64,000 bases of DNA from assembly GCF_001610835.1 (NCBI RefSeq), contig NZ_CP011270.1, forward strand, positions 5,226,001-5,290,000. Direction: 5' to 3'. How positions within the stretch are numbered: position 1 is the first letter of the stretch; every line of letters begins with the position of its first letter. This stretch comes from Planctomyces sp. SH-PL14 (GTDB lineage: Bacteria; Planctomycetota; Planctomycetia; Planctomycetales; Planctomycetaceae). This document shows, in pieces, positions 4,263-64,000 of this stretch. The notes beneath the pieces are model-generated. The model was not told the DNA's origin. It did not search any database and saw only the letters and a program-made list of their open reading frames with translations. The translations under genes were made by a program, and so were the position numbers.

Positions 4263-4577
4263 ACCGCGTCCTCGCCGGCACGACTCCGTTTGCTCAAACC
4301 CAACGTGCCACGGCAGCCGGGGTCAAGGGGGCAACCCTTGCCGCCGGAGGCGCTTCCATGAGGAACCGTGGTACGCAACGGACGTCCGCTTTGTGGAAGC
4401 GACGGTGAGAACCCACCGCTCGCTCTGCAATCCCCACGGGTTGGTGGGAGGGGCATACAGCACTGTGTCCGCGCTTGGGCACTCACCCCTTCAGACATCC
4501 CTCGACGGCCAGGCCTCCGGCGGGCAAAGGGGCGTTGCCCCTCTGCACTCCCCACCAGGGTGCCCCTGGACCCGGTT
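4263..4577 (+). repeat. dispersed structured repeat, copy 1
   Basis: First of 14 copies of a roughly 320-bp intergenic element. The plus orientation is defined as starting with CCGCGTCCTCGCCGG and ending with GGACCCGGTT. Order of parts: a GGGGTCAAGG hairpin, CCGCCGGAGGC, TTCCATGAGGAA, GTGTCCGCGCTTGG, GCCTCCGGCGGGC, an AGGGGCGTTGCCCCT hairpin and a CCAGGGTGCCCCTGG hairpin. The right end stops 13 bp before the stop codon of the minus-strand GTPase gene. Open frames across it are not conserved as protein. Confidence 0.9.
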
Positions 4578-4590
4578 CTGGGCTGCGTTT

Positions 4591-13028: not shown

Positions 13029-13365
13029 AACCCCGTCCTCGCCGGACGGACGCCCATAGCTCAAACCCAATGTGCGACGGCAGCCGGGGTCAAGGGGGCC
13101 ACGCCCCCTTGCCGCCGGAGGCATTTTTCGTCGCGGAACCGTGGGACATGACGGAAGTCCCCTTTGTGCTACCGGCGCCGAGGATCGCCGCTTGTCCTGA
13201 AGACGCCGCGGGTCGGTGAGGAGACATACGACACGGTGTCCGCGTTTGGACACGCTCTCCTTCAGACATCTCTCGACGGCCAAGCCTCCGGCGGGCAAAG
13301 GGGGCCAGAAAAACAACACAGGCCCCTCTGCATCCCCCACCAGGGGTGACCCCCTGGACCCCGGA
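13029..13365 (+). repeat. dispersed structured repeat, copy 2
   Basis: A full-length copy lying between the convergent CRTAC1-like gene and the 13384-14163 gene. The 5' hairpin is GGGGTCAAGGGGGC-CAC-GCCCCCTTG. The 3' hairpin carries the A-rich loop module CCAGAAAAACAACACAGG. The terminal hairpin is the extended form CCAGGGGTGACCCCCTGG. The central part is more diverged than in most copies. Confidence 0.88.
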
Positions 13366-15637: not shown

Positions 15638-15968
15638 ACCGCGTCCTTGCCGGAAGGACTTCCATAGCTCAAACCCAACGTGCCACGGCAGCCGGGGTCA
15701 AGGGGCCAAAAAACAACACAGACCCCCTTGCCGCCGGAGGCACTTCCATGAGGAACCGTGGTACGCAACGGGCGACCGCTTTGTGGAACCGGCGTTGAGG
15801 ACTCACCGCTCGCCCTGCGATCCCCGCGGGTTGGTGAGGGGGCATCCGGCACGTTGTCCGCGCTTGGACACGCTCTCCTTCAGATATCTCCCGACGGCCA
15901 GGCCTCCGGCGGGCAAAGGGGCGTTGCCCCTCTGCACTCCCCACCAGGGGTTACCCCCTGGACCCCGG
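15637..15968 (+). repeat. dispersed structured repeat, copy 3
   Basis: A full-length copy whose first A bases overlap the TAA stop codon of the preceding rlmN gene. Here the A-rich loop module (CCAAAAAACAACACAG) sits in the 5' hairpin, while the 3' hairpin has the ordinary GTTG loop. The terminal hairpin is the long form CCAGGGGTTACCCCCTGG. Confidence 0.9.
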
Positions 15969-16233
15969 TGATGGGGGGATCTGAAGAACGGCTGAGTTTT
16001 TTCCTTCGCCGCTTCTTGAACCTTCTTTCTCACCCTCGCAGAACCGTTTCTCAACATCCGCCATCCGGCCAACCCGCTCACGAAAACCGGTTTCGATTCG
16101 ACGTTCACCCTCCCCCAGGGTTACAATTCCACTCCCGCCGGAGGCTCGCCCGCGGACCGCGTTCCACTCGCGTCCGTACGCGCGCCCCAACCCGCCGCAC
16201 GCCGTTTCCTACGCCCCAGCCCGCCCGGACGCG
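15969..16233. other. intergenic region, no gene seen
   Basis: The leader region upstream of the PSCyt1/DUF1553 gene. It is pyrimidine-rich in its first half (many CTT/TTC). No supported promoter, RNA or ORF. Confidence 0.4.
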
Positions 16234-19033: not shown

Positions 19034-19366
19034 AAACGACATCCTTGCCGGCACGACTCGATAGCTCAAACCCATTGTGCGACGGCACCCGGGGTCAAGG
19101 GGGCCACGCCCCCTTGACCCCGGAGGCACTTCCTGTGAGGAACCGCGGTACACAACGGATGTCCCCTTTGTCTCACCGGCGTTGAGGACTTACAGCTCGC
19201 TCTGGAATCCCGGCGGGTTGGTGCGGGGGCATCCGGCACCCTGTCCGCGTTTGGACACTCACTCCTTCAGACATCTCTCGACGGCCAGGCCTCCGGCGGG
19301 CAAAGGGCCAGAAAAACAACACAGGCCCCTCTGCACTCCCTACCAGGGTGCCCCTGGACCCGGTTC
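19034..19366 (+). repeat. dispersed structured repeat, copy 4
   Basis: A full-length copy between convergent genes. Its left end is 4 bp past the TGA of the PSCyt1 gene, and its right end is flush with the stop codon of the oxidoreductase at 19367. The 5' hairpin is a perfect 14-bp stem (GGGGTCAAGGGGGC with GCCCCCTTGACCCC). The A-rich loop module is in the 3' hairpin. Confidence 0.92.
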
Positions 19367-20578
19367 TTACGCCTTCTTTCGCTCGAACGAGTACACATCT
19401 GCATACGGATGCCGCTCACTCCGTAACGCCGCTCGCAGCATCTCCGCCGCCAGCACGCTGTAAGTGATCCCGTTCCCCCCATAGCACAACGCAAAGAACG
19501 CCCGCGGCTGTTCGGACGGAAAACCGATGTACGGAAGCCCGTCCCCGGTCTCGGCGAACGTCCCGGTCCAGGGGAACGCCAGCTCCAGCGGGATCCGCGG
19601 AAAGAGAGCCCGCCACCGCCGCTCCAAACGCTCCACCTTGGCCGGAAGAAGCGCATCGCGGGCCAGGGCGTTCTGGAACGGCACGTCTTCACCGCCCAGA
19701 AGTCCGCGGCCATCGGAAGTCGTGCGGGCGTAACAGTAGGGCCGGGCCGATTCCCAGAGCAGGCACCGGTCCGGCCAGCCGGCGAAGTCGCGGATCGGCT
19801 CGCTGGCCAGCGCGAACGAACTCGTCAGCCGCACCGGAACGGATCGCCGCAGGTACTTGAGGCTCTCAAACCCGCACGCCACGACCACGTGCCCGCAGCA
19901 GATCTCCGGTCCGCGGTCGGTCTTCACCAGCAGCCCGTCCTCCCGCTCGTGACACTCGGTCGCCTCGGTCCGGGCGAAGAGCCTGGCCCCGCGCCGCTCC
20001 CCGTCGGCCAGGAGCGCGTGCGTCAGCTGAAAGGCGTCGATCTCGGCCGCCACGCGGGACCGGATCGCTCCCGGTGCCGGGAAGTCGAACTGCCGCGAGA
20101 AGTCCTCTGAGGAAATCCACTCCACCGGCAGCCCGAACTCGCGGCGCGTCTCGAACTCGTCCCGCAGGATCTCTCCATCGGCCGCCGTCGAAGCGAAGTA
20201 GACAGTGTCGCGCCGGCGGAACTCACCCGCGCCCAACGTCCGGCACAGCCCCTCGACCTTCTCGATCGCCTCCAGCCCCGATCGATACGCCGCGACCGCC
20301 AGCCCCTGTCCGGTCTCCCGGATCAGGTCCCGAAGGTGCGTATCGATCTCGTACATCAGGAGCGCCGTCGATCCGCAGGTGCTCCCCCAGCCGAAGTTCC
20401 GCCGGTCGAGCACGACGACATCGCGGCCGTCCTCGACGAGGCTGCGGGCAATGCACGCGCCGGTGATCCCACCCCCCAGGACGAGCACCTCGCACGCGAG
20501 CGAGCGATCGAGAGGCTCGTAGGTCTTGAGAAACCCGTTCTTGGCGGGCCAGAAGGGATAGCCGCTCGTGAGATCCAT
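19367..20578 (-). CDS. FAD-dependent oxidoreductase, DAO (glycine/D-amino acid oxidase) family
   Basis: A 403-residue flavoprotein. The dinucleotide-binding motif VLVLGGGITGACIARSLVE lies at about residues 31-49, followed by VVVLDRR, the acidic end of the second strand. The C-terminal GDGLPYIGF is the conserved second FAD contact of the DAO fold. The substrate is not evident. The start at 20578 is chosen because upstream sequence in this frame contains the terminator of the dps gene. It is downstream of dps on the same strand but separated by a strong terminator, so probably transcribed independently. Confidence 0.88.
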   Translation of the reverse strand: MDLTSGYPFWPAKNGFLKTYEPLDRSLACEVLVLGGGITGACIARSLVEDGRDVVVLDRRNFGWGSTCGSTALLMYEIDTHLRDLIRETGQGLAVAAYRSGLEAIEKVEGLCRTLGAGEFRRRDTVYFASTAADGEILRDEFETRREFGLPVEWISSEDFSRQFDFPAPGAIRSRVAAEIDAFQLTHALLADGERRGARLFARTEATECHEREDGLLVKTDRGPEICCGHVVVACGFESLKYLRRSVPVRLTSSFALASEPIRDFAGWPDRCLLWESARPYCYARTTSDGRGLLGGEDVPFQNALARDALLPAKVERLERRWRALFPRIPLELAFPWTGTFAETGDGLPYIGFPSEQPRAFFALCYGGNGITYSVLAAEMLRAALRSERHPYADVYSFERKKA

Positions 20579-27968: not shown

Positions 27969-28296
27969 AAATCGCGTCCTGGCCGGCACGGCTCCCATAG
28001 CTCAACCCAACGTGCGACGGCAGCCGGGGTCAAGGGGGCAACCCCTTGCCGCCGGAGGCACTTCCATGAGGAACCGTAGTAAGCAACGGATGTCCGCTTT
28101 GTGGAACCGGCGTTGAGGACTCACCGCTCGCCCTGGAATCCCAGCGTGTTGGTGAGGGGGCATCCGATACGTTGTCCGCGCTTGGACACGCACTCCTTCA
28201 GGCATCTCTCGACGGCCAGGCCTCCGGCGGGCAAAGGGGGCCAAAAAACAACACAGGCCCCTCTGCACTCCCCACCAGGGTGCCCCTGGACCCGGT
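27969..28296 (+). repeat. dispersed structured repeat, copy 5
   Basis: A full-length copy between the convergent kinase and sulfatase genes, starting 11 bp after the kinase stop codon. The A-rich loop module (CCAAAAAACAACACAGG) is in the 3' hairpin. Confidence 0.9.
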
Positions 28297-29954: not shown

Positions 29955-30277
29955 AACCGCGTCCTCGCCGGCACGGCTCTGTTACCTCAAGCCCAACGTG
30001 CCACGGCAGCCGGGGTCAAGGGGGCCTCGCCCCCTTGCCGCCGGAGGCACTCCTGTGAGGAACCGTGGTAAGCAACGGATGTCCCCTTTGTGGGACCGGC
30101 GTTGAGGACTCCACACTCGCTCTGCGCTCGCAGCGGGTTGGTGAGGGGGCATACGGCACGGTGTCCGCGCTTGGACCCTCGCTCCTTCAGAGAGAGCGAG
30201 ACAAGACGGCCTCCGGCGGGCAAAGGGGCGTTGCCCCTCTGCACTCCCCACCAGGGGTTACCCCCTGGACCCCGGTT
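29955..30277 (+). repeat. dispersed structured repeat, copy 6
   Basis: A full-length copy with the 5' hairpin GGGGTCAAGGGGGC-CTC-GCCCCCTTG and the long terminal hairpin CCAGGGGTTACCCCCTGG. Its right end is 4 bp from the stop codon of the minus-strand ohr gene. The GACGGCC segment is altered by a small local rearrangement (AGAGAGCGAGACAAGACGG). Confidence 0.9.
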
Positions 30278-30281
30278 TTGG

Positions 30282-30716
30282 CTATTCCGGATTCGTGACC
30301 ACCAGCCGGACATCAATGTTGTTACGCGTCGCATTCGAGTACGGACACACGTAGTGCGCTTTCTGCACAATCGCTTCCGCATCCGCCTTCGACATCCCCG
30401 GAACCGTGATCCGCAGCTCCGCCTCAATCCCAAACCCACCCGGCAACGGACCAATCCCGACCGTCCCCTCAATCTTCGTCTCCGGCGACAGCGACACCTT
30501 CTCCTGCATGGCGACAAACTTCATCGCCCCCAGAAAACACGCCGAATACCCCGCCGCAAACAACTGCTCCGGATTCGTCCCGGTCGCGCCGTTCCCCCCC
30601 AGCTCCTTCGGCGTCGTCAGCTTGACGTCCAGAACGCCATCGGAAGACACAGCACGACCTTCGCGACCGCCCGTGGCAGTCGCATGACCACGGTACAGGA
30701 CCTTTTCGATAGCCAT
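30282..30716 (-). CDS. ohr: organic hydroperoxide resistance protein, OsmC/Ohr family
   Basis: A 144-residue thiol peroxidase that reduces organic hydroperoxides. The two catalytic cysteines are at residue 60 (FAAGYSACF) and residue 124 ([11 protein letters not shown]), both in Ohr-specific contexts. The usual length is about 140. The start at 30716 ([10 protein letters not shown]) is preferred over an in-frame upstream ATG at 30752. It is downstream of an SDR gene on the same strand (88-bp gap), and a TetR-type regulator is divergent from the SDR. Control of ohr by TetR rather than by the usual MarR-type OhrR would be unusual; this is inferred from position only. Confidence 0.93.
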
Positions 30717-33736: not shown

Positions 33737-33757
33737 ACACGCAGCTCCGCTCATCTC

Positions 33758-34089
33758 ACCGGGGTCCAGGGGCACCCTGGTGGGGAGTGCAGAGGGGCAA
33801 CGCCCCTTTGCCCGCCGGAGGCCCTCTCGTCGAGAGATGTCTGAAGGAGCGCGTGTCCAAGCGCGGACACCGTGCCGTATGCCCCCTCACCAACCCACGG
33901 GGATTGCAAAGCGAGCTGTGTGGATTGAGGGAGTCCTCATAGCCGGTACCACAAAGCGGACGTCCGTTGTGTACCACGGTTCCTCACAGGAAATGCCTCC
34001 GGCGGCAAGGGGGCGTGGCCCCCTTGACCCCAGGCTGCCGTCGCACGTTGGGTTTGAGGTGGCATAGTCGTGCCGGCGAGGACGGGGGT
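33758..34089 (-). repeat. dispersed structured repeat, copy 7
   Basis: A full-length copy in inverse orientation, reading ACCGGGGTCCAGGGG... to ...GCCGGCGAGGACGGGG on the plus strand. It starts 21 bp after the stop of the phosphodiesterase-like gene. The 5' hairpin of the element (here at about 34010-34040) has the GTGG/CCAC loop. Confidence 0.9.
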
Positions 34090-40476: not shown

Positions 40477-40794
40477 GGACGCGTCCTTGCCGAACGGACG
40501 CCGATAGCTCAAACCCAACGTTCCACGGCAGCCGGGGTCAAGGGGGTCACCCCTTGCCGCCGGAGGCACTTCCATGAGGAACCTTTGTAAGCGACGGACG
40601 TCCGCTTTGTGGAACCGGCGTGAAGGACTGACCGCTCGCTCCGGAATCCCCGCGGGTTGGTGAGGGGGCATCCGGCACGTCGTCCGCGCTTGGACACGAT
40701 CTCCTTCAGACATCTCTCGACGGCCAGGCCTCCGGCGGGCAAAGGGGCGTTGCCCCTCTGCACTCCCCAACAGGGTGCCCCTGGACCCGGTTCT
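40477..40794 (+). repeat. dispersed structured repeat, copy 8
   Basis: A full-length copy in a divergent intergenic region, 68 bp from the CDF start and 64 bp from the kinase start. It is one of only three copies not close to a stop codon. The 5' hairpin is shorter (GGGGTCAAGGGGGTCACCCCTTG). Confidence 0.9.
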
Positions 40795-40858
40795 GGGGCC
40801 AGCTTCCTGCACAGTGTTCGAGCGAGAGACAGACGGATAGCCTGCCGGGAAGTGCCCA

Positions 40859-44654: not shown

Positions 44655-44970
44655 GAACCGGGTCCAGGGGGACCCTGGTCAGGGGGTACAGGGGGCAGAA
44701 TGCCCCTTGCCCGCCGGAGGCTGTCTCGTCGGATGTCGTCTGAAGGAGCGCGTGTCCAAGCGGACGCCGTGCCGTATGCCCCCTCACCAAACCGCGGGGC
44801 TTCCAGAGCGAGGGGTCAATCCTCAACGCCGGTTCCACAAAGGGGACGTCCGTTGCTTACCACGGTTCCTCACCAGACGGCCTCCGGCGGCAAGGGGTTG
44901 CCCCCTTGACCCCGGCTGCCGTCGCACGATGGGTTTGAGCTAACGACATCGTGCCGGCATGGACGCGGTT
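44655..44970 (-). repeat. dispersed structured repeat, copy 10
   Basis: A full-length inverse copy between convergent genes; its right end is flush with the stop codon of the DUF1501 gene at 44971. The 3' hairpin of the element has an AGAAT-type loop instead of GTTG, shared with copies 13 and 14. Confidence 0.9.
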
Positions 44971-49816: not shown

Positions 49817-50134
49817 AACCGGGGTCCAGGGGGCAACCCCTGGTAGGGAGTGCAGAGGGGCAACGCCCCTTTGCCCGCCGGAGGCCTGGCCCGCGAGAGA
49901 TGTCTGAAGGAGATCGTGTCCAAACGCGGACATCGTGTCGCATGCCCCCTCACCAAGCCGCGGGGATTCCGATGCGAGCGGGAAGTCTCAACGCCGGTTC
50001 CACAAAAGGGACATCCGTTGTGTCCCACGGTTCCTCATGGAAGTGCCTCCGGCGGCAAGGGGGCGAGGCCCCCTTGACCCCGGCTGCCGTCGCACATTGG
50101 GTTTGAGTGAGCACAGCCGAGCCGGCGAGGACAC
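49817..50134 (-). repeat. dispersed structured repeat, copy 11
   Basis: A full-length inverse copy in a divergent region, with the long terminal hairpin CCAGGGGGCAACCCCTGG. It is 110 bp from the PSCyt1 gene start and about 150 bp from the next plus-strand start. Confidence 0.9.
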
Positions 50135-50282
50135 CCTTTGGCGAACGGTCGGTTCCGCGCCAGAATGGGGCGAACCCGGCGGCGTTCCTCGCCCTCTGGA
50201 GAGATGGAGACTCCGGCGTGCCCGGATCTCTCCTGGTGGCGGGGAACGGAAGGGCAGGGCGGCGCGCCAGCAGAGGATCGAC
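50135..50282. promoter_or_regulatory. upstream region of the nucleotidyltransferase module
   Basis: 148 bp between repeat copy 11 and the GTG start at 50283. It presumably contains the promoter for the two-gene module. AGAGGA five bases before the start is a plausible ribosome-binding site. No clear palindrome or promoter pair. Confidence 0.4.
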
Positions 50283-56510: not shown

Positions 56511-57881
56511 TCAGCCTCTCCCCTCGCCGCGGCGTGGCTTCGTCCTGCGCTGGGGGCGCCGTTTGGCTTCGCCTTTGGGGGTGCGTTTGGTGAATCGTTT
56601 CTCGCCGAAGGCTGGCCGCTTTTCGCCCCCTTCGGAGAAACGGGCTGGCCGGCCTTTGGCCGGGGCGCCCTTCGGGCGGGGAGCCCGGTGGCCCGGTGTT
56701 CGCGCTTCCGCCGGCGGAGCGTCTCCGACGGACTCGGCTCGCGGACGTCCTTTGCGGGGTGGGCGTGTCTCGCGGTCTCCGGCGCCGGCCCGATCGGAGC
56801 GCGGCCGGGCGGAACCGGATCTGGCCGCGCCGGGTCTGGCACCACCGGGTCGGCCCGAACGAGGGCCACCCGGAGGCGGGCTGTCTGACGGGGAGTCGGC
56901 GGGGCGGCCGCCGTACGGGAGAGCCGGGTGCCGGTTCAGCGGGAGATCGAAGTCCGGTTCTCCCTCGTCCATCTGCGCGGCGGGAGCCCGGCGGGGGCGA
57001 AGCGGGCGGGGAGCATCCTTGATCGGGGCGTTCGCGCGGGCTGGACGACCGGGCCGGGCCGGTTTGCGGGCCTTGCTCGAAGGACGGGACTGCGCCTCGG
57101 CCTTCATGAGGACGGAGTGGAGTCGTTCGAGCTCTTCGTGGCGGAGTTCGCGGAACTCGCCGGCCTTGAGCTTGCCGAGGCTCAGGGGGCCGAAGGCGAT
57201 CCGCTCCAGCCGCATGACCTTGTGGCCCATCTTGGCGAAGAGGCGGCGGATCTCGCGGTTGTGGCCTTCGCTGAGGATGACCTCGAGCCACATGCTCTGG
57301 CCTTGGCGTTTGACGGTCTGGACGTCGTGGACCTTGAACTTCCCTTCGAGGAAGAAGACCCCTTTCTTGAGCTGGTCGAAGATCTCGCGGGTGGGGAAGC
57401 CGGCGACCTGGACGAGGTAGGTCCGGTAGATGCGGTAGCGGGGGTGGGCCATCCGCTGTGCGAGGTCGCCGTCGTTGGTAACGAGGATCAGGCCTTCGCT
57501 GTCTTCGTCGAGGCGGCCGACGGTGAACAGTCGGGGTCCGGCGTCGGGGAAGAAGTCGACGACGCGGGGTCGGCGTTTGGGGTCGTTATTGGTGCAGAGG
57601 ACGCCGGTCGGTTTGTTGAAGAGGTAGTACTTTTTCCGCTCCATGCGGAGGCGTTCGCCGTCCAGCATGATTTTCTGGACGGAGGGGTTCACCGTGACGC
57701 CGAGTTCGGTGACTTCGACGCCGTCGACGGTGACTCGGCCCTGGGTGATGTATTCTTCGCAGGCACGGCGGGACCCGAGTCCGCAGGCGGCGAGGAACCT
57801 CTGGAGGCGGATTTTGGGGATTTCCGGAGAGGCGGGTGGTGGGCCGGTTTCCGGGGCTTCGTAATCGGAGGGATCTTGCAT
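56511..57881 (-). CDS. rluB: RluB-type 23S rRNA pseudouridine synthase with basic tail
   Basis: A 456-residue enzyme starting at the ATG complementary to 57879-57881; the frame is open to 58271 through a repeat. An S4 RNA-binding domain at residues about 22-70 ([20 protein letters not shown]) is followed by the pseudouridine synthase domain with catalytic Asp in [17 protein letters not shown] and the late [20 protein letters not shown]. Typical RluB proteins end near residue 260-290. Here a further roughly 170 residues are low-complexity, rich in Arg, Pro, Gly and Lys, strongly basic, and likely disordered. RluB isomerises a uridine in 23S rRNA helix 89 in E. coli; RluE/F relatives are less likely. 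Confidence 0.88.
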
Positions 57882-57986
57882 GGAGCTCAAGGATACGGGG
57901 AGGGGAGCGTTCCGCCCAGCGTGGGGGAGTGAGGAGGGGTGAGGCGGAAGGTAGAGAGTGGTTGGGCAGGGTGTGGTCGAAAGTCT
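57882..57986. promoter_or_regulatory. rluB upstream region
   Basis: 105 bp between the rluB start and repeat copy 13. Purine-rich on the plus strand. A promoter for rluB is expected here, but none could be assigned. Confidence 0.3.
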
Positions 57987-58313
57987 AACCGGGTCCAGGG
58001 GCACCCTGGTCAGGGGGTGCAGGGGGCAGAATGCCCCTTGCCCGCCGGAGGCCTGGCCGTCGAGAGATGTCTGAAGAAGCGCGTGTCCAAACGCGGACAC
58101 CGTGTCGGATGCCCCCTCAACTAACCCACGGGGATTGCAATGCTCGCGGTGTGTTTTGAGGGAGTCCTCAATGCCGGTCCCACAAAGGGGCGTCCGTTGT
58201 GTACCACGGTTCCTCATGAAAGCGCCTCCGGCGGCAAGGGGTGACCCCCTTGACCCCGGTTGCCGTAGCACGTTGGGTTTGAGCTATGGGCGTCCGTTCG
58301 GCGAGGACGGGGT
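57987..58313 (-). repeat. dispersed structured repeat, copy 13
   Basis: A full-length inverse copy in a divergent region, about 100 bp from both flanking starts. The 3' hairpin has the AGAAT-type loop. The internal region has a small insertion after GATTGCAATGC compared with most copies. Confidence 0.9.
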
Positions 58314-58414
58314 TCGAGCCAGCGATTGCGAGGGAAATCGTTCTCTTCCGGCCCGGCTGCGCTAGAATCCATGGCTCGTCCTGCCCCCGTTCGACCTCGG
58401 AATCGCCTTCCTTG

Positions 58415-60367
58415 ATGGACTTCGCCCGCTCCAGCCGCCAGCGCTACCTCGAATACCGGGAGGAAGTCCGTCGACGCCGCGGGGAGCGGGAGACGCCTCC
58501 GGTCTCGCCACATGGGACGGGACCGATGCGTCCCGCCGGCCCACGCCAGCGTTCCACAACGGCCCTGCTCAAAGCCTTCTGGCAATTCCTCGCCGGACAA
58601 CGCGGGCCGGTCCTCTGGTCGCTCTTCACTCTGACGCTGGCCACCCTCCTGGGGCTGATTCCTCCGGCATCGACCAAGTTCGTCGTCGACAACGTCCTCG
58701 GAAATCAACCGCTGCCGGACGTCCCCTGGATCCGCGCCCTCGTCCCGACCGATAAGTGGCGGCTCCTGATCGCCCTCACGGCCGCCGTGACGCTCCTGTC
58801 GGGAGTCCGCGTCCTCCTCAAAATCTCCGGCCGCTGGGCCGCGACCCGGGCCACCAAGCGGGTCCAGATGTCGATCCGCAAGCGGGTCATGGAACACGCC
58901 GTCCGGCTCCCCCTCCCCCGCGTCCACGAACTCAAGTCTGGCGGAATGGCGAGCCTGCTGCGGGAAGACGCCGGCGGGATCGGCGACCTGATCTTCGGCC
59001 TCCTCTACAACCCCTGGCGGGCGGTCGTCCAGCTCCTCGGGAGCCTGCTGATTCTGGCCTGGGTCGACTGGCGGCTCCTGCTCGGGGCGCTGTTGGTGAT
59101 TCCGGCGGTCTACCTCTCGCACCGGACCTGGATCCTCGAGATCCGCCCGCGGTTCCGCGACGTCCGGGCCCGGCGGCAGCAGATCGACAGTCAGACGACC
59201 GAGACCTTCGCCGGGATGCGGGTCGTGCGGGCCTTTGGCCGGCAGCGGACCGAGACCGCCCGCGTGATGACGAACGCCCATCTCATGGGCCGGCAGGAGC
59301 TGTTCGTCTGGTGGTGGATGCGGGTCATCGAGATCGTGTGGGAGCTGCTGATTCCGCTCGGCTCGGGGGCGCTGCTGCTGTACGGCGGCTGGCGGGTACT
59401 GAACGACCAGCTCACCGTCGGGGAGCTGATGATGTTCCTCGTGTACCTCGTGATGTTGCTGGAGCCGATGGCGATCCTGGCGGAGAGCGCGGCGACGCTG
59501 CAGAACAGCCTGTCGGGGCTCGATCGGGTGCTTGATCTGCTCGGCGAGCCGCGGGAGATGGAGGCGACCGACGCCTCGCTGCGGATCTCGCACGAAGACG
59601 TGCTGGGACGGGTGACGTTCAGTGACGTGTCATTCCGTTATGCCGCGGAGTCGCCGTGGGCGTTGCAGGATGTCGATCTCGACGTCAATGCGGGAGAGAC
59701 GATCGCGCTCGTGGGGCCGAGCGGGGCGGGGAAGACGACGCTGTGCAATCTTGTGGCGCGGTTCTATGACCCGACGGCGGGGGCGATCCGGCTTGACGGG
59801 AGGGACCTGCGGGAGATTGACGTCGAGAGTTATCGCGGGCTTTTGGGCGTGGTTGAGCAGGACGTGTTCCTGTTCGACGGGACGATTGCGGAGAACATTG
59901 CGTATGGGCTGCGGGATGCGACGCAGGGGGCGATTGAGGAGGCGGCGCGGGTGGCGAATGCGGACGAGTTCATCCGGCGGTTGCCGCAGGGGTATGGGAC
60001 GGTGATTGGGGAGCGGGGGGTGAAGTTGAGTGGTGGTCAGCGGCAGCGGCTGGCGATTGCGCGGGCGCTGGTGGCGGATCCGCGGATCCTGATTCTGGAT
60101 GAGGCGACGAGCAATCTGGATACGGAGAGTGAGCGGTTGATTCAGCAGAGTTTGCGGTCGCTGATGCGGGGTCGGACGTCATTTATCATTGCGCATCGGT
60201 TGAGCACGATTCGGCATGCGAGTCGGATTCTGGTGTTGGAGGGTGGTCGGATTATTGAGTCGGGGACGCATGACGAGCTGATTGCGCAGGGCGGCCGTTA
60301 TCGTCGGATGGTCGAACTCCAGGCCTCGCTTGATACGGAGCAGGTGGCAGCAGAGACGCAGACCTGA
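58415..60367 (+). CDS. ABC exporter, fused permease and ATPase
   Basis: A 650-residue half-transporter. Residues about 60-360 hold six membrane helices (for example LWSLFTLTLATLLGLIPPAS, VVQLLGSLLILAWVDW). The ATPase follows: Walker A GPSGAGKTT (about 434-442), signature LSGGQRQRLAIARAL (about 538), Walker B ILILDEATS (about 558) and a switch His in FIIAHRLSTI. The layout is that of lipid A/multidrug exporters (MsbA-like). Functional dimer inferred. The substrate is unknown. The last third has a marked change to G- and T-ending codons. Its stop codon overlaps repeat copy 14. The start at 58415 avoids an upstream extension without coding character. Confidence 0.93.
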   Translation: MDFARSSRQRYLEYREEVRRRRGERETPPVSPHGTGPMRPAGPRQRSTTALLKAFWQFLAGQRGPVLWSLFTLTLATLLGLIPPASTKFVVDNVLGNQPLPDVPWIRALVPTDKWRLLIALTAAVTLLSGVRVLLKISGRWAATRATKRVQMSIRKRVMEHAVRLPLPRVHELKSGGMASLLREDAGGIGDLIFGLLYNPWRAVVQLLGSLLILAWVDWRLLLGALLVIPAVYLSHRTWILEIRPRFRDVRARRQQIDSQTTETFAGMRVVRAFGRQRTETARVMTNAHLMGRQELFVWWWMRVIEIVWELLIPLGSGALLLYGGWRVLNDQLTVGELMMFLVYLVMLLEPMAILAESAATLQNSLSGLDRVLDLLGEPREMEATDASLRISHEDVLGRVTFSDVSFRYAAESPWALQDVDLDVNAGETIALVGPSGAGKTTLCNLVARFYDPTAGAIRLDGRDLREIDVESYRGLLGVVEQDVFLFDGTIAENIAYGLRDATQGAIEEAARVANADEFIRRLPQGYGTVIGERGVKLSGGQRQRLAIARALVADPRILILDEATSNLDTESERLIQQSLRSLMRGRTSFIIAHRLSTIRHASRILVLEGGRIIESGTHDELIAQGGRYRRMVELQASLDTEQVAAETQT

Positions 60368-60702
60368 ACCGGGTCCAGGGGCTACCCTGGTCAGGGGGTG
60401 CAGGGGGCAGAATGCCCCTTGCCCGCCGGAGGCTTGTCTCGTCGAGAGTTTCTCTGAAGGTGGGAGTGTCCAAACGCGGACACCGTGCCGTATGCCCCCT
60501 CACCCACCCGCGGCGATTGCAAAGCGAGCGGTGAGTCCTCAACGCAGGCGACACAAAGCGGACGCCCGTTGTGTGCCACGGTTCCTCATGGAAGTGCCTC
60601 CGGCGGCAAGGGGGCCTGTGTTGTTTTCTGGCCCCTTGACCCCAGTGGCCGTGGCACGTTGGGTTTGAGCTGGCGGGAGCTGTGCCGGCAAGGACGCGGT
60701 TC
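60366..60702 (-). repeat. dispersed structured repeat, copy 14
   Basis: A full-length inverse copy between convergent genes; its first two bases (GA) are part of the TGA stop of the ABC exporter. The A-rich loop module is in the 5' hairpin (GGGGCCAGAAAACAACACAG on the minus strand), as in copy 3. The 3' hairpin has the AGAAT-type loop. Confidence 0.92.
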
Positions 60703-60714
60703 GAGCCAAGAAGC

Positions 60715-61470
60715 TCACTGCTTGTCCAACAGCCCCCGGCGCACCAACTCCTCCGTCCACGACACCCGCAACGCATCCCTCTGCTGTGGAAAATGCCGCA
60801 GCATCATCCGCCGCCGCGGCGGCATCCACGTGTGATGGACATCCACGTCCAGCGTCAGACCCAGATACCGGCAGTGATACCGATCAATGCGATCGTCCTT
60901 CCCCACCAGCTCCGTCGTCACCTCCGCCTCCGGAATCAACGACCCCAGGATGAAGTGCCCCGCAACGATCCGGTCCTCATCGTCCAGCATCGCCAGCGCC
61001 GCCCGGGCCTGCTCGGCATTCAGCTTCGTCGGAACCCGCATCGCAAAGTCCGGGATCCACTGCGCATGCAGCCCCCCCTCGCCATCCAGGTCCCACACGA
61101 CATGCGCATTGAAGATGTCGGTAAACGGCCCGCTCGTCAGCTCGGACGTGTCGATGCTGGCTGCAATGGACGGCGAGAAATGCCCCGCCGCTGCCGTCGC
61201 CGTACGGGGTTCCCGGGAGGCCGCCTCACTGTCGGAAGCGGCGGCCGACGGATCGCCCGGGGCCGCCGCCTGCTTCGCATTGGGCCGGACCACGAACGCC
61301 AGAGCCACGGAAAAACACAGAATCACCGCCATCGTCCGGACGTTTCGCCACACGGCCCGTACTCCCACCGCATGCCAGATCCGCGACCAACTCCCGTGCG
61401 AGTGTAACCGCGGGCGGCGCTCGGCGGCACACTGTTTTTTCCGCCGAATCGGGAATGCCGTTGACAGCAT
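60715..61470 (-). CDS. membrane-anchored protein of unknown function
   Basis: A 251-residue protein if started at the ATG at 61470; a start at 61332 is also possible and would place the membrane helix at the very N-terminus. One transmembrane helix (MAVILCFSVALAFVV) is followed by a low-complexity Ala/Ser/Glu linker. The soluble domain (DIFNAHVVWDLDGEGGLHAQ, DDRIDRYHCRYLGLTLDVDV) is presumably outside the cytoplasm. I do not recognise the family. The C-terminus is basic (PPRRRMMLRHFPQQRDALRV). Convergent with the ABC exporter and divergent from the DUF1801 gene. Confidence 0.7.
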   Translation of the reverse strand: MLSTAFPIRRKKQCAAERRPRLHSHGSWSRIWHAVGVRAVWRNVRTMAVILCFSVALAFVVRPNAKQAAAPGDPSAAASDSEAASREPRTATAAAGHFSPSIAASIDTSELTSGPFTDIFNAHVVWDLDGEGGLHAQWIPDFAMRVPTKLNAEQARAALAMLDDEDRIVAGHFILGSLIPEAEVTTELVGKDDRIDRYHCRYLGLTLDVDVHHTWMPPRRRMMLRHFPQQRDALRVSWTEELVRRGLLDKQ

Positions 61471-61618
61471 CCGTCCGCCTCGACGGTTCCGATCCTGCCG
61501 ATCCGGTCCCCCTTGACGCCCCGATCGGACCGGCGCGAGACTGACATTCCGCTGCCCGCCGCCGTCCCGACCGCCGTGAACGCGGACCTGGTCTGCGGAT
61601 CTCCCGTGCGAGAAACCG

Positions 61619-62023
61619 ATGAAGCCGGCCACCGTCGACGACTACATCGCCCAGTCTCCGGAGGAGGTCCGGCCGATCCTCGAGAAGATCCGGGCCACGA
61701 TCCGCCGCGCGGCGCCGAAGGCGACGGAGCGGATCAGCTACCGGATGCCGGCCTTCTTCCAGGACGGCGTGCTGGTCTACATCGGGGCCTTCAAGAACCA
61801 CATCGGCCTCTATCCGCCGGTGTGCGGGGACGAAGCGCTTGAGGCCGAAGTCGCCCCCTATGAAGGGGAAAAGGGGAACCTCCGCTTTCCGCTCGACCGC
61901 CCGATCCCGTACGGGCTGATCGGCCGGATCGTCAAGTCCCACGTCCGGGAGAACGCGGCCCGCGCCGCTGCGAAGGCCTCCACGGCAAGGAGCCGCCGTT
62001 CCGGCACTCGATCTCGCGGTTGA
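61619..62023 (+). CDS. DUF1801 (YdhG-like) protein
   Basis: A 134-residue cytoplasmic protein. The family pattern is clear in the first 115 residues: TVDDYIAQSPEEVRPILEKI, then ATERISYRMPAFF, the VYIGAFKNHIGLYP segment, and GNLRFPLDRPIPYGLIGRIV. YdhG-type members have a frataxin-like fold and have been proposed as iron chaperones; that role is not certain. The last roughly 20 residues are Arg/Ser-rich and atypical. Separated from the signal peptidase gene by 155 bp on the same strand. Confidence 0.9.
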   Translation: MKPATVDDYIAQSPEEVRPILEKIRATIRRAAPKATERISYRMPAFFQDGVLVYIGAFKNHIGLYPPVCGDEALEAEVAPYEGEKGNLRFPLDRPIPYGLIGRIVKSHVRENAARAAAKASTARSRRSGTRSRG

Positions 62024-62178
62024 CCTGCCGCGGCCGGCTGGCCGCGTCCGTAAGCCCAGGTGACGGACCGTCCGATACGCGACGGGCCCCCGTCTTTCTG
62101 CCGGCCGCGCTTTCCACCCCCAACCTCCGCAGGATACCCTGCTTCGTTCCCGGATGGACCCTCCCGCTGAGTCTTCGT

Positions 62179-64000
62179 ATGTCGACCGCCCCCACGCCCG
62201 CCAACGCCGCCGCGACCTCCACCGGCACCGCCGCCCCCGGAGCGGGCCCGGCCACGTCGACGACCCCCGCCAAGACCAAGAAGGACTCCCCGCCGGAAAG
62301 CGCGCGGGACACGATCGAATCGATCATCTTCGCCCTCCTGATGGCGTTCCTGTTCCGCACCTTCGAGGCGGAGGCGTTCGTCATCCCCACCGGCTCGATG
62401 GCCCCCACGCTGTACGGGCGGCACAAGGAGGTCCACTGCCACGAATGCGGGTATCCGATCGTCGTCGGCGCGAGCGATGAAGTCGACAACAAGGACGGCA
62501 CCCTCATCAACCGCCTCAACCAGGTCGTCTGCCAGAACTGCGGCGGCGTCACCGACGCCTACGAAGACGTCCCCTTCAACGGCGACCGGATCCTCGTCAA
62601 CAAGTACCCCTACGAGTTCGGCGAGCCCGACCGCTGGGACGTCTTTGTGTTCAAGAATCCGGAACAGCCGGAGATGAACTACATCAAGCGCCTCGTCGGC
62701 CTCCCCGGCGAGACGATCCGCATCCGCAACGGCGACCTGTACCGCGTCGTCGACGGCAAGGCCTCGATTCTCCGCAAGCCGCCCGAAAAGCAGCGGTTCC
62801 TCCAGATCCCCGTCTACGACGACCGCTACCCCGCGGAAAAACTCCTCGCGGCGGGCTGGCCGGAACGCTGGGCCGCCGTCGAGAAGACGGGGCAGCCGAA
62901 CGGGAACGGGGCCATCGACGGCTGGGAACCGACCGACCTCGGCTGGAAGCACGACCCCAAGACCCGCGAGTTCCGCCTGGAGAAGGCGGACGCCGCCCCC
63001 CGCACGATCCGCTACCGCCACTACCTCGCGACCCCCGAGGTCTGGCAATCCCTCGCCAGCGGCATCGACGTCCGCCCCGCGGCCTCCCTGGTGGCGGACG
63101 ACTGCGGCTACAACAACTTCACCGTCCGGGCCCCCTTCAACGACGGCATCTCACCGGCGAACCTCGAACTCGGCGCCTACTGGGTCAACGACCTCACGGT
63201 GAACTTCGGGCTCGAGCTGACGGCGATCGATCCGGGGGCCGCCGTCGTCCTGGAACTTCTCGAAGGGGTCTACCAGTACCAGTGCAAGATCGACCCCAGC
63301 TCCGGCATGGCGACCCTGACCGAGACGTCGATGACCGGCAACGTCACGGTCGAGCTCGCCTCGCAGCAGACCTCGCTCCGCGGTCCGGGGACTTACGCCA
63401 TCACCTTCACCTGCGTGGACGACCGCCTCTGCCTGTGGGTCGACGGCAGCCTCGTCGACTTCGGCCCCAAGGCGAGCCTCGAGCATTTCGCCACCGCCGA
63501 CTCCCTGCCGCACCCGCGGGACCGGTCGCCGGTCGGGATCACGGTCGCGGGGGCCCAGGCCACGGTCCGGGACCTGCTGCTCCAGCGGGATGTGTATTAC
63601 CGGACGGCGGAGTCGCATTGCCTGCATGGCCTCGAAGACCAGCTCGCCCGGCTTCTCGGCAACGTGGAGCAGTGGAGCGAGCTGTACTCGAACACGGAGA
63701 AGTGCCAGACCCGCGACCTCCAGGTCGATCGGAACGGGTTCCTGGCCTTCGGCGACAACAGTCCCCGCAGCAGCGACAGCCGCTTCTGGCGCGACACGCA
63801 GAGCGTCCCGCGGGACTTCCTGGTCGGCAAGGCGTTCTGGATCTACTGGCCGCACGGGATCCCGTTCCTCAATGGGGGGAAGGGCTTCACCGTGATGAGG
63901 CACGCCGTTGACCGGGACGTGATCAAGGACAAGAGCTGGCTCAACTACCCCAAGATGACGTTCCCGTTCTACCCGCAGTTCTGGCGGATGAAGCGGATCC
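62179..64000 (+). CDS. lepB: signal peptidase I with large insertion (3' end outside window)
   Basis: 607 residues are visible without a stop. A Thr/Ala-rich N-terminus is followed by one membrane helix (about 47-62). The catalytic Ser is residue 73 in PTGSMAPTL, and the catalytic Lys is residue 170 in YIKRLVGLPGE. The GDNSPRSSDSRFW box is near 527. Between Ser and Lys are two CxxC pairs (CHEC 87-90 and CQNC 118-121), a zinc-ribbon-like insertion. Between Lys and the GDNS box lie about 350 residues, far more than usual, including a beta-rich, laminin-G-like stretch (CVDDRLCLWVDGSLVDFG). It removes signal peptides from exported proteins at the outer face of the inner membrane. Confidence 0.92.
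   Translation, partial: MSTAPTPANAAATSTGTAAPGAGPATSTTPAKTKKDSPPESARDTIESIIFALLMAFLFRTFEAEAFVIPTGSMAPTLYGRHKEVHCHECGYPIVVGASDEVDNKDGTLINRLNQVVCQNCGGVTDAYEDVPFNGDRILVNKYPYEFGEPDRWDVFVFKNPEQPEMNYIKRLVGLPGETIRIRNGDLYRVVDGKASILRKPPEKQRFLQIPVYDDRYPAEKLLAAGWPERWAAVEKTGQPNGNGAIDGWEPTDLGWKHDPKTREFRLEKADAAPRTIRYRHYLATPEVWQSLASGIDVRPAASLVADDCGYNNFTVRAPFNDGISPANLELGAYWVNDLTVNFGLELTAIDPGAAVVLELLEGVYQYQCKIDPSSGMATLTETSMTGNVTVELASQQTSLRGPGTYAITFTCVDDRLCLWVDGSLVDFGPKASLEHFATADSLPHPRDRSPVGITVAGAQATVRDLLLQRDVYYRTAESHCLHGLEDQLARLLGNVEQWSELYSNTEKCQTRDLQVDRNGFLAFGDNSPRSSDSRFWRDTQSVPRDFLVGKAFWIYWPHGIPFLNGGKGFTVMRHAVDRDVIKDKSWLNYPKMTFPFYPQFWRMKRI

Follow-up and report, generated by a model that had tools for sequence, protein, structure and literature searches.

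Signal peptidase I (SPase I), a textbook enzyme, is essential and serves as a target for antibiotics; its domain II is commonly regarded as a variable addition. The window analysed here, a stretch of 64,000 nucleotides from Planctomyces sp. SH-PL14, ends within a gene (called A below) that raises the question of what such an enzyme might do with two additional pieces. The initial annotation, made from the sequence alone, described the product of this gene as an SPase I with two CxxC pairs between the catalytic serine and lysine, followed by a very large insert, and it proposed that the former bind metal and that the latter recognizes substrates or glycans on the outer face of the membrane, perhaps in keeping with the many unusual exported proteins of this group. 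The question is thus whether the enzyme, the metal site and the extra domain are what they were taken for, and whether we deal with a specialised protease or with the general one of the cell.

Gene A and its layout

Protein A is almost certainly a type I signal peptidase, as judged by its similarity to known families. It matches Peptidase_S26 of Pfam with 108.6 bits (cut-off 22.9; E 4.3e-31) and TIGR02227 with 103.7 bits (cut-off 47; E 8.7e-30), the other Pfam match at E <= 1 being a weak one to a zinc finger (E 0.45). The profile of an alignment of 45 relatives (A2, whose rows were mostly picked from proteins bearing the cysteine-rich loop, or ribbon, described below) finds solved signal peptidase I chains at E 2.6e-28 to 3.4e-26, and Foldseek with the model of protein A finds the E. 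coli enzyme (1t7d) at E 1.8e-5. The GDN box at residue 525 is invariant in all 45 rows, as are Ser73 and Lys170, and an N-terminal membrane anchor is predicted from a model helix and the hydropathy maximum. Chance or artefact as the source of these similarities is ruled out by the Pfam E-value, the invariant residues and the matches to protein A in 279 of 294 genomes of the phylum (E <= 0.001, core-only matches included). Another idea, that the catalytic serine has been lost in some relatives, was also rejected: a motif search missed it in 88 frames, yet where the region was read it has SMAE, SMAT, SMAD, SMAP or similar, and some of the other frames are truncated.

Coordinates of the features are collected in Table 1. 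The ATG frame encodes 608 residues. Its start at 62179 is that of the initial annotation, whereas the end given there, 64000, is the window edge; the stop codon lies at 64003-64005, 5 bases past the window. As the frame is still open upstream as far as a TTG at 62020, the ATG start is a choice. Ser73, CHEC (87-90), CQNC (118-121), Lys170 and GDNS (525-528) are all where they had been placed, and the lysine and GDNS, estimated to be about 350 residues apart, are separated by 355. An SPase I with two CxxC pairs and a large insert is thus confirmed by Pfam, by the alignment and by a confident model of the insert. E. coli LepB shares with protein A the Ser/Lys dyad, the GDN box and the N-terminal anchor, the cores being aligned at probability 99.4, but protein A differs from it in two places. 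A ribbon is present between SMAPTL and GDRILV (Ser-Lys spacing 97 vs 55 residues), and a predicted lectin fold replaces the smaller domain II (Lys-GDN spacing 355 vs 127).

Table 1. Features of gene A, the two further signal peptidase genes of the host genome and the dispersed repeat (window positions unless a locus is named)
Feature	Position	Strand	Basis or description
Gene A, predicted type I signal peptidase, CDS, 608 aa	62179..64000	+	Pfam Peptidase_S26 E 4.3e-31, TIGR02227 E 8.7e-30; stop outside the window
N-terminal helix, residues 40-63, likely membrane anchor	62296..62367	+	model helix 40-63; hydropathy windows >1.6 start at residues 49-51
Catalytic Ser73 in IPTGSMAPTL	62395..62397	+	invariant, 45/45 rows
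Zinc-ribbon-like insert, residues 79-132	62413..62574	+	alignment, AF2 model, loop classification, Pfam scans, isolated loop model and fold matches
First knuckle CHEC, residues 87-90, starting 14 residues past Ser73	62437..62448	+	sequence, alignment
Second knuckle CQNC, residues 118-121	62530..62541	+	sequence, alignment
Catalytic core part 1, residues 133-195 (GDRILVNK ... YIKRLVGLPGE)	62575..62763	+	hhalign alignment with LepB of E. coli (probability 99.4, E 4.1e-21)
Catalytic Lys170	62686..62688	+	invariant, 45/45 rows
Predicted concanavalin A-like / L-type-lectin-fold domain, ~residues 204-473, at the position of domain II in LepB	62788..63597	+	AF2 model; structural matches ~204-473; insert profile phylum-wide
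Catalytic core part 2, residues 515-560, GDNSPRSSDSR at 525	63721..63858	+	sequence, alignment, profile
Paralogue B, predicted SPase I	L008 2963-4645	-	561-aa frame, same plan as A, CPTC and CPNC, Lys-GDN 337
Gene C, predicted ordinary SPase I	L009 2877-4019	-	ordinary plan, no CxxC pair, Lys-GDN 85, extra N-terminal hydrophobic stretches
Dispersed repeat, first six copies	4266-4588, 13034-13364, 15641-15969, 19042-19368, 27974-28293, 29959-30283		
Dispersed repeat, last six copies	33756-34085, 40477-40797, 44655-44966, 49817-50135, 57988-58323, 60366-60697		

The host genome (8.44 Mb, single contig) has two further SPases I besides A, namely B, located 1.5 Mb away from A, and C. It needs to be mentioned that the window also bears a dispersed repeat of about 330 bp, present in 12 copies and in both orientations. 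Further copies lie next to B and C and downstream of A, and in the rows read the window copies share 76-89% identity with them. A genome-wide first look gave 1185 candidates, 40 of which were scored and matched at 85-100%; if all the candidates are real, the repeat would account for a few per cent of the genome. A search of Rfam over 57800-64000 gave no match.

The cysteine pairs and the zinc-ribbon-like loop

The serine of signal peptidases I sits in the loop between strands 1 and 2, and the cleft is made up of strands 1, 2, 5 and 6 (PMC4049620, available part). According to hhalign, the additional loop of protein A is an insertion between SMMPTLL and GDFILV of LepB. As it leaves the very loop that carries the catalytic serine, the probable zinc-binding ribbon should project from there in the neighbourhood of both the peptide cleft and the membrane.

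Among the 45 rows of A2, C87, C90 and C118 are invariant and C121 is found in at least 90%, but as these rows were mostly chosen for the ribbon, a classification of 211 frames is the fairer count (25 further frames without the Ser motif stand outside it). The script assigned all four cysteines to 145 frames, found no loop in 33 and put another 33 aside. On re-reading, 6 of the latter joined the frames with a full set of cysteines, which brings their number to 151. A further 15 have a cysteine-free loop, 4 are odd or partial cases (L051, L101, L158 and L164), and 8 were mis-anchored or had another kind of loop. Wherever the serine was anchored and a pair found, the first cysteine comes 14 residues past it, L164 being the one exception read. 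Such an all-or-none pattern suits one four-ligand metal site. Several of the cysteine-free loops retain the knuckle outline, with TG in place of CG and DPM or DPL in place of CPN, and this suggests that the ribbon fold may matter more than its metal. L057, L163, L167 and L176 have three to six CxxC pairs in the Ser-Lys interval, and their ribbons are perhaps doubled or enlarged.

When loops were scanned alone, 26 of 36 matched Zn_ribbon_4 of Pfam at E <= 1, the best at 5.6e-5. These 36 loops (A3) come from A2, 8 loops of more than 75 aa and L101, which is without the second CxxC, having been dropped; within this chosen set the four cysteines are invariant and stand in CxxCG and CPNC contexts. 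The loop of protein A itself is not among the 26 and falls below the cut-off in all 23 Pfam families listed (at best 18.1 bits vs 27), and we thus call it zinc-ribbon-like without assigning it to a Pfam family. Modelled in isolation, it gave a mediocre model (pLDDT 74.2, pTM 0.50), which had no Foldseek match at E <= 0.001 and weak structural matches, with Z of 2.0 to 3.3, for the most part to proteins such as LysW, the ZitP zinc finger, RbpA and RBR ligases. ZitP is named zinc-binding in the title of its structure, and we take LysW, RbpA and the RBR ligases to be zinc-binding as well. The loop therefore resembles Zn_ribbon_4 and other zinc ribbons in its CxxC-CxxC pattern and in the short strands round the knuckles, but differs from them in these low Pfam and fold scores and in being located within a loop of a peptidase core.

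One could suppose instead that the pairs form disulfides or a redox switch in an oxidising compartment, with no metal involved, given that LepB topology would put the site outside the membrane. We find this quite improbable: it is weakened by the occurrence of the four cysteines together, as counted above, and the CxxCG and CPNC contexts and the zinc-ribbon profile matches also speak against it. Metal binding by the ribbon is strongly favoured by the sequence comparisons, and zinc is the probable ligand, with a likely structural role, i.e. the metal would most likely just hold the fold. The initial annotation read the Cys pairs as metal-binding, and this reading is probably right, considering the sub-cut-off Pfam matches, the all-or-none cysteines and weak fold neighbours that are mostly zinc-binding. 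Conservation of the pairs, by which this proposal was to be checked, proved two-sided, as they are kept in most relatives but missing in whole lineages. The ribbon, being absent or cysteine-free in many lineages, is inessential to this type of enzyme.

The insert in the place of domain II

The stretch between Lys170 and the GDNS box very probably folds as a lectin-like domain, as predicted by AlphaFold2. The model calculated on the 45-row alignment reaches a pLDDT of 83.5 and a pTM of 0.84; over residues 331-470, its ten-residue means lie at 80-98. It contains a two-sheet beta-sandwich, as in the concanavalin A-like / L-type lectin fold. Structure prediction had been named beforehand as a possible refutation of the extra domain; the domain is present in the model at about 204-473, where it is in the place of domain II of E. 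coli LepB. Together with the metal-site appearance of the Cys pairs, this bears out a part of the interpretation given in the initial annotation, apart from the lineages in which the ribbon is absent; recognition of glycans or substrates is still a proposal.

Among the nearest solved folds is that of ERGIC-53 (1gv9; Z 14.4, rmsd 3.0, 167 residues, model range 207-472). Further neighbours are galactocerebrosidase (5nxb, Z 14.0), CBM66 (4azz; Z 13.9, rmsd 3.4 over 158 residues, Foldseek E 2.2e-6), 1oq1, which has a galectin-like fold and unknown function (Z 13.8), and VIP36 (2duq, Z 13.1), and more carbohydrate binders or carbohydrate-active enzymes, such as Emp46/47, legume lectins and glucanases, are found among the nearest folds. 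Chains from amylase-inhibitor complexes are equally near (1dhk, Z 14.1; 1viw). The beta-sandwich that the predicted model shares with L-type lectins (ERGIC-53, VIP36) and CBM66 extends over 154-186 residues at Z 12.6-14.4, but identity is 8-16% in the listed rows, and the domain of protein A sits inside a membrane peptidase.

At the sequence level, the A2 profile gives weak matches of the insert to laminin alpha-1 (E 0.31), levanase CBM66 chains (E 0.46-0.54) and galectin (E 1.1), and the ubiquitin hydrolase USP28 matches as well or better (E 0.02-0.16) but over 251-352. No laminin G model was found for protein A at E <= 1, nor among the best 25 of the 60 Pfam families matched by the 45 rows, and the insert searched as a single sequence against the PDB (phmmer) gave no match. 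Laminin G belongs to the concanavalin A-like fold, and the description of the insert as beta-rich and laminin-G-like thus seems a fair one at the level of the predicted fold, given the sandwich in the AF2 model. Y311, N312, D338, D414, R470, D471 and Y474 are invariant in a 21-row alignment, and among them only D338 and Y474 are so in 45 rows; these few widely kept residues may be structural.

Selection on the parts was estimated by dN/dS for seven A-type gene pairs, estimates being formable for part of them. In four pairs, the core gave 0.012-0.032, the ribbon 0.061-0.095, the lectin part 0.046-0.099 and the N-terminal tail 0.155-0.373, with synonymous differences of up to 0.74, near saturation, in some of them; a fifth pair gave 0.219 for the lectin part. 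Mean identity over 11 A-type proteins is 0.47 in the lectin part vs 0.73 in the core. The ribbon and the lectin part are both constrained, less so than the core.

What, then, may such a domain do? The likeliest explanation is that the sandwich, filling the domain II position, acts as a cap and a docking surface which would place either the enzyme or its substrates, the partner being a protein or an envelope glycan. On the predicted structure, we give this docking role an even chance. The domain might also be a purely structural cap that enlarges domain II and has no ligand, which we consider possible but doubtful. On one hand, domain II is variable in size and without conserved sequence motifs (available part of PMC4049620), the insert evolves faster and its invariant residues are few. 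On the other hand, purifying selection acts on the domain, and as many as 234 of the 245 SPase frames have a match at E <= 1 to a profile of insert residues 300-476. A variable second domain on the S26 fold is also known from SipA of Streptococcus pyogenes, which is without the catalytic dyad that protein A keeps (available part of PMC4049620).

A more far-reaching possibility is that the domain is a true lectin. Its ligand would be a glycan of the envelope or a glycosylated pre-protein, and cleavage of the signal peptide would in this way be coupled to the recognition of glycans. Many of its nearest folds are indeed carbohydrate binders or carbohydrate-active enzymes, and LepB topology would make it face outward. 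However, a common fold does not imply a function, and amylase-inhibitor complex chains and 1oq1 are equally close; moreover, few residues are widely kept, perhaps for structural reasons, and the PDB search with the single-sequence insert was negative. We thus regard a true lectin as unlikely, and glycan binding by the modelled sandwich appears improbable too. Slightly more improbable still is that the phylum's general signal peptidase would be a lectin reading glycans of the envelope or of pre-proteins as they emerge. If this were true, signal-peptide removal would be tied to glycans, loosely as in ERGIC-53 cargo sorting in eukaryotes. The docking cap is the reading that we carry forward.

Distribution and likely role of the enzyme

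The survey proposed in the initial annotation found the insert widely present among signal peptidases of Planctomycetota. A lectin-fold SPase (E < 1e-3) occurs in 51 of the 54 planctomycete family codes examined, although the loci were chosen by similarity to A and this is thus not an unbiased rate; ribbon and insert are combined in 23. The three codes without it are f8, where E is 0.0034, f40, where two separate frames hold the core and the insert, and f55, whose enzyme is short. For frames of f12, matches to the insert profile are weak (E 9e-5 to 0.23). The order core-insert-core was seen in the rows printed, i.e. in part of the 245 frames. The profile matched none of the ordinary SPases C (L009), L180, L181 and L182, nor the ribbon-bearing or paralogous frames L102 (435 aa) and L027 (448 aa), and elsewhere among 4139 frames it reached E < 1e-3 in just 14, each also labelled SPase. 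Frames were taken stop to stop and de-duplicated by identical sequence alone, and one gene in overlapping loci may count twice. In L037, L054 and L055, the SPase frames extend over 930-1291 codons when taken from stop to stop. The stretch in L055 is also overlapped by a lepA frame, and its extra length is thus probably an upstream open frame and not protein.

Outside these loci, a plasmid search with the insert gave no match, and the viral contigs searched gave 7 weak ones. A contig scan returned at least 80 loci; among the 80 listed, titles name Planctomycetota or planctomycete taxa in 77, 'bacterium' in 2 and Bacteroidales in 1. The last of these, L127, carries lepA followed by two planctomycete-type SPases. 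Protein A is matched by 19 of the 21 genomes in the group round this record, its own among them, and the Bacteroidales label is thus doubtful and probably wrong. Peptidase_S26 was not matched at E <= 0.001 in three planctomycete genomes (G313, G206 and G263, given as 93-96% complete).

In a quick tree of 155 frames, which has long branches and in which three ordinary SPases do not form one outgroup, 38 A-type rows (33 with the ribbon) are grouped with SH-aLRT 100 and 20 B-type rows (all with the ribbon) with SH-aLRT 89; the first-of-tandem copies L104, L121, L027, L029 and L102 are outside the B group. Both types occur in records of Isosphaeraceae, Gemmataceae and Planctomycetaceae, and the A/B duplication thus looks old. 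The ribbon state needs 15 changes on this tree, 4 of them forced by starred branches.

Is this enzyme a general or a special one? In each of nine same-family genomes (7 of them single-contig), exactly two frames, of 559-680 aa, match Peptidase_S26 over the cut-off, and in 7 of the nine the two long frames are neighbours. The insert was found by profile in both of them in six genomes (G024, G048, G216, G257, G283 and G291), at most one frame having been read for it in the other three. Judging from these frames, such enzymes seem to be the only SPases I in the cells of several relatives. In a wider same-family sample, 40 of 41 genomes match Peptidase_S26; among the matches listed, 30 of these 40 have only S26 frames of at least 455 aa and 10 also have a shorter one. 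The E. coli gene order lepA-lepB recurs in part of the relatives. Of the 103 loci with 700 bases or more upstream, 25 have lepA as the immediate upstream neighbour of the SPase genes, in the same orientation, and 78 do not by these criteria (L140 being counted here only because of a frame overlap). In the host genome, lepA is far from A and B.

It might be argued that A and B are specialists that process only some of the exports, while general processing falls to the ordinary enzyme C. The host genome does have C, and the shorter frames in 10 of the 40 genomes would agree with such a division. We consider it very unlikely, because nine of nine same-family genomes have two long frames alone over the cut-off, 30 of the 40 genomes have long S26 frames throughout (again among the matches listed) and the lepA-lepB order is kept in part of the relatives. 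Taken together, the domain II position of the insert, its spread in the phylum and the presence of two long SPases as the sole ones over the cut-off in nine genomes make a niche role less likely. A general rather than niche enzyme is thus what we consider likely on sequence grounds; given that C is present and lepA distant in the host genome, this is likely rather than proved.

The explanation that we hold to be the best overall, and would endorse with some reserve, is a general SPase I with a probable zinc ribbon and a lectin-fold domain II. Protein A would be one of two general type I signal peptidases in this planctomycete, anchored in the membrane by one N-terminal helix, and its Ser73/Lys170 dyad, to judge from the conserved residues, would cut signal peptides in the usual manner on the outer face of the membrane.

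In the available part of PMC12758564, LepB appears as an E. coli control only, and a search of the open literature, with most subscription journals outside its coverage, found no description of such enzymes. We thus seem to deal with a known enzyme in an architecture for which we found no description in the open literature. A phylum with an unusual envelope appears to process its general exports via enzymes with a lectin-fold domain II. Often, these enzymes also have a piece next to the active site that probably binds metal. This opens the question of whether domain II steers the substrates or positions the enzyme in the envelope.
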